The translations under genes and the position numbers were made by a program. From Candidatus Parcubacteria bacterium (GTDB lineage: Bacteria > Patescibacteriota > Minisyncoccia > Phycocordibacterales > JAACPR01), in assembly GCA_009995365.1 (NCBI GenBank), contig JAACPR010000009.1, positions 1 through 35,270 on the forward strand: a stretch of 35,270 bases of DNA. The letters are read 5' to 3'. Under the pieces are notes generated by a model. That model was given only the letters and a program-made list of their open reading frames with translations, was not told the origin of the DNA and did no database searches. Of the stretch, positions 4,998-27,278 are shown in pieces. How positions within the stretch are numbered: position 1 is the stretch's first letter; each line of letters starts with the position of its first letter.

Positions 4998-6011
4998 ATG
5001 GGATTTTTCACACCAAAATTAGGGATTGATTTAGGAACTGCAAATACACTGGTTTATGTGCCAGGTCGCGGTATCGTTTTAAATGAACCTTCTGTCGTTG
5101 CTATTTCAGAACAAGACAATAAAATTTTAGCGGTCGGTAATGAGGCCAAGCAGATGATTGGTCGAACGCCAGAAAGTATTATTGCTTATCGCCCAATGCA
5201 GGACGGAGTAATCGCTGATTATCGTGTAACCGAGGCGATGCTTTCTTATTATATTCAAAAGGCTCTGGGTAAATGGAATTTTTTCAAGCCTGAAGTCATG
5301 GTGTCTGTCCCTGCCGGAGTTACTTCAACCGAGCGTCGCGCTGTTATCGAGGCGGCTATCAAGGCTGGTGCCAAGAACGCTTATGTTGTAAAGGAACCGA
5401 TCCTTTCTGCTATTGGTGCCGGTATCCCAATTCACGAAGCGCAGGGAAGAATGATCGTCGACATTGGAGGAGGAACTACTGATGTTGCCGTTATCTCTCT
5501 TGGAGGAATTGTTTCTTGCACATCTGTTAAGTGTGCCGGTAATAGAATTGATTATGCAATCACCGACTACATCAAGAAAACTTTCAATCTAGCGATTGGT
5601 GATAAAACTGCCGAACAAATCAAAATTAAAATTGGTTCTGCTGTTTTGTTAGACGAAGAATTAGAGATGACAATCAAAGGTCGTGATTTTCTGACCGGAC
5701 TTCCTCGTTCAACTGAAATTAAAACTAATGAAATTGTAAAAGCGATTAATAAGGAGTTGCGTGATATTGTCAAAGCAATCAAAGACGTCTTGCAAGAGAC
5801 TCCACCAGAGTTATCTTCAGATATTATTGATAATGGAATTATGATGACAGGAGGAAGTTCTCAGTTGCGTAATTTACCTGAGTTGGTTTATCGAAGGACT
5901 GGTGTAAAAGCAAATCTCGCTAAAGATTCTCTTTATTGTGTTGTGAAGGGAACTGGGATTGCGCTTAATCACCTTGATACTTATAAGAAGTCTATTATTT
6001 CAAAGCGGTAA
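4998..6011 (+). CDS. mreB: rod shape-determining protein MreB (paralogue 1)
   Basis: GIDLGTANTLVYVPGRGIVLNEPSVVA, DIGGGTTDVAVISLGGIV, MMTGGSSQLRNLPE. Confidence 0.95.
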   Translation: MGFFTPKLGIDLGTANTLVYVPGRGIVLNEPSVVAISEQDNKILAVGNEAKQMIGRTPESIIAYRPMQDGVIADYRVTEAMLSYYIQKALGKWNFFKPEVMVSVPAGVTSTERRAVIEAAIKAGAKNAYVVKEPILSAIGAGIPIHEAQGRMIVDIGGGTTDVAVISLGGIVSCTSVKCAGNRIDYAITDYIKKTFNLAIGDKTAEQIKIKIGSAVLLDEELEMTIKGRDFLTGLPRSTEIKTNEIVKAINKELRDIVKAIKDVLQETPPELSSDIIDNGIMMTGGSSQLRNLPELVYRRTGVKANLAKDSLYCVVKGTGIALNHLDTYKKSIISKR

Positions 6012-6055
6012 TAATCAAAAAGCACCCCTAATATTATCTTTTCTAAAACACGAAT

Positions 6056-6077
6056 CAGCGACCTACTCGGGTCGCTG
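6056..6077 (+). terminator. hairpin downstream of mreB (candidate terminator)
   Basis: CAGCGACC tactcg GGTCGCTG followed by TTCTCGTTT (weak U tract). Confidence 0.5.
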
Positions 6078-6095
6078 TTCTCGTTTCAACACCAC

Positions 6096-6214
6096 AAACC
6101 ACTAACAACATTATCTCCCTCGTTCCCGTCCTCGACACTGCTTGCGTCAAGGCATAAAGCCATTGACACCGCAGGTCTGCGGAGGAACTCGATAGAAAAT
6201 GTTGTTAGTGGTTT
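6096..6214 (+). repeat. family-A structured repeat, copy A1
   Basis: 17-bp perfect inverted repeat AAACCACTAACAACATT (6096-6112) / AATGTTGTTAGTGGTTT (6198-6214) around an 85-bp core closely similar to 27182-27262. Confidence 0.88.
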
Positions 6215-6270: not shown

Positions 6271-6371
6271 ACCACCTAAAAATACTTCTTTTCGAGTTTC
6301 TTTGCAGGACTTCCTTTAAAAATATAATTGAGTCCGAAACCAAAACGAGAGAAGAAGTATTTTGGGGTGGT
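6271..6371 (-). repeat. family-B structured repeat, copy B1
   Basis: 21-nt arms ACCACCTAAAAATACTTCTTT / GAAGAAGTATTTTGGGGTGGT (18 Watson-Crick plus 2 G-U) around a core homologous, in reverse complement, to 9574-9636. Confidence 0.86.
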
Positions 6372-9557: not shown

Positions 9558-9653
9558 AGTTTTTTGTATATTTCTCTCTCAAATTGGTTTCGGACTCCGT
9601 TATATTTAAAAGGAAGTCCTGCAAAGATTTTCGATAGAAAATACAAAAAAACT
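9558..9653 (+). repeat. family-B structured repeat, copy B2 (between rplJ and rplL)
   Basis: Arms AGTTTTTTGTATATTTC / GAAAATACAAAAAAACT around a core matching B1: TTGGTTTCGGACTC..TTATATTT..AAAGGAAGTCCTGCAAAGA. Confidence 0.86.
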
Positions 9654-16163: not shown

Positions 16164-17243
16164 ATGAAAGGAATAGAAGACATAAAAAAATATTTTAATA
16201 ATTTAACAAAAAAGTTTTCAAATGATATTGGTATCGATCTTGGGACTGCTAATACATTGGTTTATATTCCAGGTAAAGGTGTAATTATAAACGAACCTTC
16301 TGTTGTTGCTGTTAATCAAAAAACTGGGCAAGTAGTCGCTGTTGGGGCTGAGGCAAAACAGATGCTGGGTAGAACTCCTGCTCACTTAAAAGCTATTCGT
16401 CCGATGGTTGATGGTGTTATATCTGATTTTGAGGTTACAGAAGAGATGATTGCTTATCTACTTAATAAGGCACAAAAAGGTAACAAAAAATTACTAGGTC
16501 CTCGAGTTGTTGTCGGTGTTCCGTCTGGTATTACCAATGTTGAATCTCGTGCAGTGCGTGATGCAACCATTTCAGCAGGCGCTAGAGATGTCTTTATCGT
16601 TGAAGAGCCGATGGCAGCAGCAATCGGTGTTAGAATGCCGGTCCATGATCCAGTCGGTTCCATGATTATTGATATTGGGGGTGGAACAACCGATATCGCA
16701 GTTATCTCTCTTGGTGGAATCGTCCGCTCAAAAAACTTGAAAATTGCAGGTGATAAAATGAACGAAGATATTATAAATTATATTCGTGGAGAATTTAAAA
16801 TATTAATAGGTGAAAAAACTGCCGAAGATATCAAGATTGAAATTTGTAAAATTGTACCAGATGGTGATGTTTTAGAGTCTACAGTTCGTGGTCGTGATTT
16901 AGTCTCTGGATTGCCTCGAGAAGTTATAATTACAGAGTCAGACATCAGAGAAGCGGTCGCTCAATCAATAGATACAATCATCGAATCAACTAGGGAAGTA
17001 ATGGAAATAACACCTCCAGAAATTGTCTCTGACATTATGAAAAGAGGGATAAGTCTAACCGGAGGAGGTGCCTTAATCAAAGGGCTAGATGTTTTGTTGT
17101 CAGAAGAATTAGAATTGCCGGTTAGCGTATCTACAGATCCTTTAACTTCAGTTGCTAGAGGTACAGGAATTATTCTTGAAGACTTAAACAAATATAAAGA
17201 TGTTTTAATTGAAAAAGAAGATGACTTACCACCGAAGAAATAA
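16164..17243 (+). CDS. mreB: rod shape-determining protein MreB (paralogue 2)
   Basis: NDIGIDLGTANTLVYIPGKGVIINEPSVVAVN, DIGGGTTDIAVISLGGIV; upstream of mreC. Confidence 0.96.
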   Translation: MKGIEDIKKYFNNLTKKFSNDIGIDLGTANTLVYIPGKGVIINEPSVVAVNQKTGQVVAVGAEAKQMLGRTPAHLKAIRPMVDGVISDFEVTEEMIAYLLNKAQKGNKKLLGPRVVVGVPSGITNVESRAVRDATISAGARDVFIVEEPMAAAIGVRMPVHDPVGSMIIDIGGGTTDIAVISLGGIVRSKNLKIAGDKMNEDIINYIRGEFKILIGEKTAEDIKIEICKIVPDGDVLESTVRGRDLVSGLPREVIITESDIREAVAQSIDTIIESTREVMEITPPEIVSDIMKRGISLTGGGALIKGLDVLLSEELELPVSVSTDPLTSVARGTGIILEDLNKYKDVLIEKEDDLPPKK

Positions 17244-27163: not shown

Positions 27164-27278
27164 GCATCAAAAAATATTATCTCTCTCGTTCCCGTCCTCG
27201 ACCTGCTTTTGTAAAGGTCTAAAGACCTATGACAACGCAGGTCTGCGGAGGAATTCGATAGATAATATTTTTTGATGC
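27164..27278 (+). repeat. family-A structured repeat, copy A2
   Basis: 18-bp perfect inverted repeat GCATCAAAAAATATTATC / GATAATATTTTTTGATGC around a core homologous to A1; left arm begins 2 nt after the murF stop codon. Confidence 0.88.

Follow-up and report, generated by a model that had tools for sequence, protein, structure and literature searches.

How do both arms of a hairpin change together? The question arises where near-identical cores sit on paired stems of entirely different sequence, and it was raised here by two hairpins of the window, that is, of the whole 35,270-nucleotide stretch analyzed (contig C21 of the host genome G000, 758 kb in 24 contigs, about 91% covered by open reading frames in crude calls). 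The first-pass annotation described them as oppositely oriented copies of one structured repeat, each with its own arms. Both look-alike hairpins, B1 and B2, were found again, with their cores on opposite strands; the places given for the cores were right, but their ends were 1-2 bases off and are corrected in Table 1. Pairing of each arm with its partner is near-complete in B1 (18 of 20 stem positions), while the B2 stem pairs imperfectly and is interrupted by two one-base bulges. Compared with dinucleotide shuffles, the folding z-scores on the two strands are -5.0 and -5.7 for B1 and -3.2 and -3.6 for B2.

Table 1. Hairpin elements of the window. The strand is that of the TCG..CTGC motif.
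Feature	Positions	Strand	Details
B1, whole element	6271-6371	-	stem 6271-6290/6352-6371, core 6292-6351
B1, TCG..CTGC head motif	6304-6337	-	
B2, whole element	9560-9650	+	rplJ/rplL gap; stem ~9560-9575/9635-9650, core 9576-9634
B2, TCG..CTGC head motif	9590-9622	+	
A1, family A	6096-6214	+	same gap as B1; motif model match 6127-6185
A2, family A	27164-27278	+	motif model match 27193-27251
Family C, left half	6050-6087	+	truncated, joined to A1

The B core has 16 copies in G000 (nhmmer E-values from 2e-13 to 5e-5), and this number rules out the chance similarity of two AT-rich hairpins, to which the absence of further copies in the genome or its relatives would have pointed; for the relatives that absence did hold, as the exact core was found in none of the other genomes searched. 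Sixteen single matches to it in unrelated GTDB taxa are provisionally taken as chance, and IMG/VR has no match to the exact core. All B copies are intergenic, their flanks vary, and the B-type elements are ~90-105 nt long. G000 also contains six full copies and one partial copy of family A. Family C is represented by one full and one half element, family D by four elements and a contig-end fragment. When inverted repeats with loops of 30-170 nt were scanned for blindly, nearly all of those with arms of at least 17 bp proved to be these elements. The sole non-intergenic case is an A element close to the end of a contig, overlapped by a called 61-aa reading frame that is taken for an artefact. 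From translations read by eye and the earlier annotation, we take the neighbours of the elements to include mreB, holB, rplJ/rplL, ftsZ, tuf, fusA, thrS and rpsA. In all half elements seen (at C4:11685, among A-left/D composites and in the window) the side retained is the left one of the TCG strand, but so small a number carries little weight.

The stems of the B copies are mostly unrelated to each other and are nearly perfectly paired in most copies. In one pair, C12_11105 and C21_9576, core identity is 0.96 and arm identity 0.10-0.20, with 0.28 expected by chance, so the stems seem to change wholesale and together. The arms are not private throughout, as had been proposed: three B copies carry identical arms and two further pairs have homologous ones. 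Since the three identical-arm copies sit within unrelated flanks, the unit includes the arms. A source of the arms elsewhere in G000 was sought and rejected; leaving aside arms common to several elements, the longest matches elsewhere measure 11-17 nt, roughly the length expected by chance for A+T-rich DNA. With moderate confidence, we consider B1 and B2 to be copies of a miniature intergenic hairpin element that multiplied in the genome and enters gene junctions whole, stem included.

Families A and B were first annotated as separate families, and this division has been amended. In A, B, C and D a common inner motif, 5'-TCG-[stem]-CTGC-3', is enclosed by complementary flanks (X-TCG-[P3]-CTGC-X', with CTGT in C); the flank pairs are TCC/GGA in A, TT/AA in B, GTC/GAC in C and TGC/GCA in D. 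An outer internal loop, CTCTCG/CTCGATAG, is common to A and B. Judged by these shared sequences, the four families are variants of one class. A scan of G000 for the motif with long flanking stems returned elements only; the plain TCCTCG..CTGCGGA pattern alone proved too noisy for a census. We built a covariance model of the motif region, R2, with the outer stems outside the model. Its 21 training sequences were chosen for carrying the motif and their invariance is partly by construction, so that independent matches are the real test. In G000, R2 gave 27 matches with E < 0.005, all of them elements (one counted twice in overlapping stretches), and nothing further before E = 0.49. This model could serve as a working tool for locating such elements.

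Among sampled genomes of the phylum and order, R2 matched 13 times in G002, five times in G062 and once each in G353, G374, G571 and G176; this distribution is a lower bound, as 20 candidates were scored per genome and G020, G035 and G100 were missed. Long flanking stems are present at all four single matches, and at most 0.3% of letter shuffles equal them. Multi-copy versions were found by pattern search in G002, G035, G062, G020 and G100. R2 locates private-stem hairpins in other genera and families, many of them three-way junctions. In G001 and G002, which belong to the same family as G000, private-stem hairpins carry other heads and the TCG/CTGC motif. A three-way junction with a second hairpin characterizes the elements of G035, G062, G020 and G100 as well as families C and D of G000; in several of these genomes the stem of the second hairpin varies between copies, and in G035 and G062 variable stems bear conserved apical loops (CCAGCG and ACCAWGC).

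The proposed B structure was evaluated on 15 copies that can be aligned nearly without gaps. Paired cells make up 94%, and 25 of the 29 pairs have changes on both sides. The covariation score is 0.716, as against 0.178 in shuffles and 0.13-0.23 with the partners slid. This strong covariation, together with the copy number, bears out the earlier description of B as a structured-repeat family with private arms. The inner pairs of the core also covary: AAT/ATT alternates with TTT/AAA, G-C with A-U, and GGACTC/GAGTCC with GGCTTC/GAAGCC. Two-sided changes occupy 117 cells of the alignment compared with two cells of one-sided, G-U-type changes, an excess that would be unusual if the stem were drifting as RNA. 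G-U pairs account for ~4% in element arms on either strand in minimum-energy folds, compared with 9.5% in 34 tRNAs and, among terminator-like hairpins, 10.6% of pairs in tandem gaps and 4.2% in convergent gaps. Scarcity of G-U on both strands fits a DNA-level or two-strand function: the hairpin probably acts as DNA or in both transcripts, given that its pairing is maintained with hardly any G-U on either.

The same data bear on whether the elements could be a cis-regulatory or trans-acting structured RNA, with a head that binds a ligand or protein and stems that evolve by compensatory change. The conserved internal loop, the three-way junction and the apical loops of G035 and G062 would suit such an RNA, and so would the covariation; however, its orientation to tandem neighbours should not be as mixed as the ~10:5 observed, and the dearth of G-U pairs, the near-identical cores with unrelated arms and the lineage-specific heads all speak against it. 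We consider a structured RNA of this kind improbable.

Entry of the miniature element as a whole unit is suggested by gene junctions. The mreB-holB gap is 2 bp in G002 versus 412 bp in G000, where it holds the C half, A1 and B1. At C19:28531 the gap is 2 bp in G001 versus 156 bp in G000, and the rplJ-rplL gap is 46 bp in G002 and 37 bp in G001, without a hairpin, versus 125 bp in G000. Because the filled junctions of G000 hold whole elements and are tight or hairpin-free in relatives, the stems probably came in with the element. The comparison is one of gap sizes with relatives of different genera rather than of aligned empty sites, and element loss in the relatives may be an alternative source of the difference. 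Inspection by eye of the flanks of the three identical-arm copies revealed no target-site duplication.

These junctions also weigh against insertion of the core into the loop of pre-existing hairpins, mainly terminators, with the private stem being the target. We had favoured this scheme at first on account of C19:28507, which resembles an ordinary G000 terminator with a core in its loop (compare C18:12914); one element of G002 is moreover apparently nested in the head of another (L108:33-222, outer arms of 23 bp). It was ranked low after the gaps of 2, 2 and 37-46 bp were found in same-family genomes, which have no hairpin at these three sites to serve as a target. Ordinary hairpins with stems of at least 17 bp are also rare, several element stems are not terminator-like, and target capture cannot account for second-hairpin stems that vary between copies. 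We now regard it as quite unlikely.

Some further features were observed at or near these loci. Two mreB-like genes of the window (4998-6011 and 16164-17243) share stretches with a DNA identity of up to 79%. G000 carries one D and one B element at the 3' end of its rpsA homologue; G001 has a different long-armed hairpin with 26-bp arms at that place (L090:3129-3263). The rplJ-rplL gap of G018, another relative (L196), contains an unrelated palindromic repeat of the GGATCCCCGC..GCGGGGATCC type near the rplJ end, and part of the 3' end of rplJ is apparently duplicated there.

Alternatively, the elements could be the two-way intrinsic terminators of this lineage, with long stems under selection and a head of little consequence. 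Like bidirectional terminators, they pair well on both strands, often lie 3' of genes, and in about half of the copies the stem is followed by T-tracts: 14 of 26 elements have one on at least one side, against a background of ~10% per end. An ordinary terminator was found in only one of 24 element gaps, compared with 25 of 52 element-free convergent and 36 of 262 element-free tandem gaps. Convergent gaps are over-represented among element sites, though the six B cases include three duplicates of one another and one with a doubtful neighbouring reading frame, and the G-U content of the elements resembles that of convergent terminators. On the other hand, T-tracts are missing from 12 of the 26 elements, B1 and B2 among them. 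Elements occupy junctions at which relatives have only 2 bp between the genes, and the rplJ/rplL gap, where a strong terminator would be costly. Terminators would not explain the conserved 50-80 nt head, whose motif is shared across families of the phylum, or the stems of G002, which are A+T-rich throughout. The terminator features hint that some copies are under selection for function, a point against the mobile-element reading. We consider termination unlikely as the primary role. Because T-tracts are partial and absent at B1 and B2, because B2 lies in rplJ/rplL and because orientation is mixed, the best reading puts a miniature, apparently mobile hairpin class in first place and gives termination a secondary part; the roughly half of copies with T-tracts may double as two-way terminators.

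Among known repeats, the REP type is the nearest kind. REP/REPIN and CGTC-tagged repeats (PMC2817692, PMC3116915, PMC3733652) are likewise small, intergenic, multi-copy, non-coding palindromes, and the CGTC-tagged ones also lack a dedicated transposase (PMC3733652). Members of a REP family, however, have a common stem with a tag at one of its ends, whereas here the outer stem is private and the conserved part internal. Inspection of the 16 B copies revealed no GTAG or CGTC end tag and no shared palindrome ends; family A has CGTC internally only. Y1 tyrosine transposases (PF01797), which move repeats of the REP or IS200/IS605 type, are encoded in G001 and G035 but absent from most element-bearing genomes (G000, G002, G020, G062, G100, G353 and G374), and so were rejected as the mover; the absence from G000 could reflect loss. 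With shared stem, tag and transposase all lacking, a repeat of this type moved by a Y1 transposase is very improbable.

The elements are similar to MITEs in being short, non-coding, repeated and apparently inserted as a unit. MITEs differ in having shared terminal inverted repeats and target-site duplications; here the terminal repeats vary by copy, with arms at chance similarity in several pairs with near-identical cores and shared in three small groups only. Variable complementary arms around conserved hairpins are also known from retron non-coding RNAs, which differ in coming with a partner reverse transcriptase; for the ~26 elements of G000 there are three reverse transcriptase genes. Reverse transcriptase as the mover was likewise rejected, as it is encoded in five of nine element-bearing genomes but in 83 of 197 genomes (42%) of the order anyway, and in none of the element-bearing G001, G353 and G374. 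No mobilizing enzyme was identified among Y1 transposases and reverse transcriptases; this, like the lack of a visible target-site duplication, counts against the mobile-element reading.

Two paralogous loci of G000 (C6:7020-9673 and C19:13964-16594, in L010 and L023) each combine a reverse transcriptase with a 68-nt hairpin (family E), repeat-like sequence and a reading frame of ~197 aa, an arrangement resembling diversity-generating retroelements. Downstream of each reverse transcriptase, at 0.2-0.6 kb, lies an A or B element.

We propose that the miniature hairpin element works as follows. Some protein would recognize the conserved TCG/CTGC internal loop of the head in the folded strand. 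The outer stem would need only to be complementary, so that its sequence could vary freely; in most copies the whole stem would have been exchanged at once instead of changing pair by pair through compensatory steps. If stems are re-made while remaining paired, both arms would have to be copied from one template, e.g. by snap-back or template-switch synthesis; we know of no copying mechanism that renews both arms together. More tentatively, we propose as a possibility that the elements represent an undescribed mobile nucleic-acid hairpin class of one phylum (probably Patescibacteria), defined by the TCG/CTGC internal loop, often with a three-way junction, whose long stems are re-made, still paired, at or soon after insertion. 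If this is right, these streamlined genomes harbour unrecognised structured insertion elements between housekeeping genes, perhaps altering transcript ends.

At the gathering score, Rfam release 15 has matches in the window to two tRNAs only, and the host elements and six loci from relatives gave only sub-threshold matches. The open-licence PMC literature, represented mostly by titles and abstracts, yielded no description of such repeats in Patescibacteria. This points to an element class that is apparently undescribed.

Directly 3' of the 3' arm and just upstream of a start codon, three elements of G000 (C12:11082-11186, C24:19192-19301 and C24:27353-27454) and the one in G571 (L223) have promoter boxes resembling TATAAT, several of them in the form TGnTATAAT.
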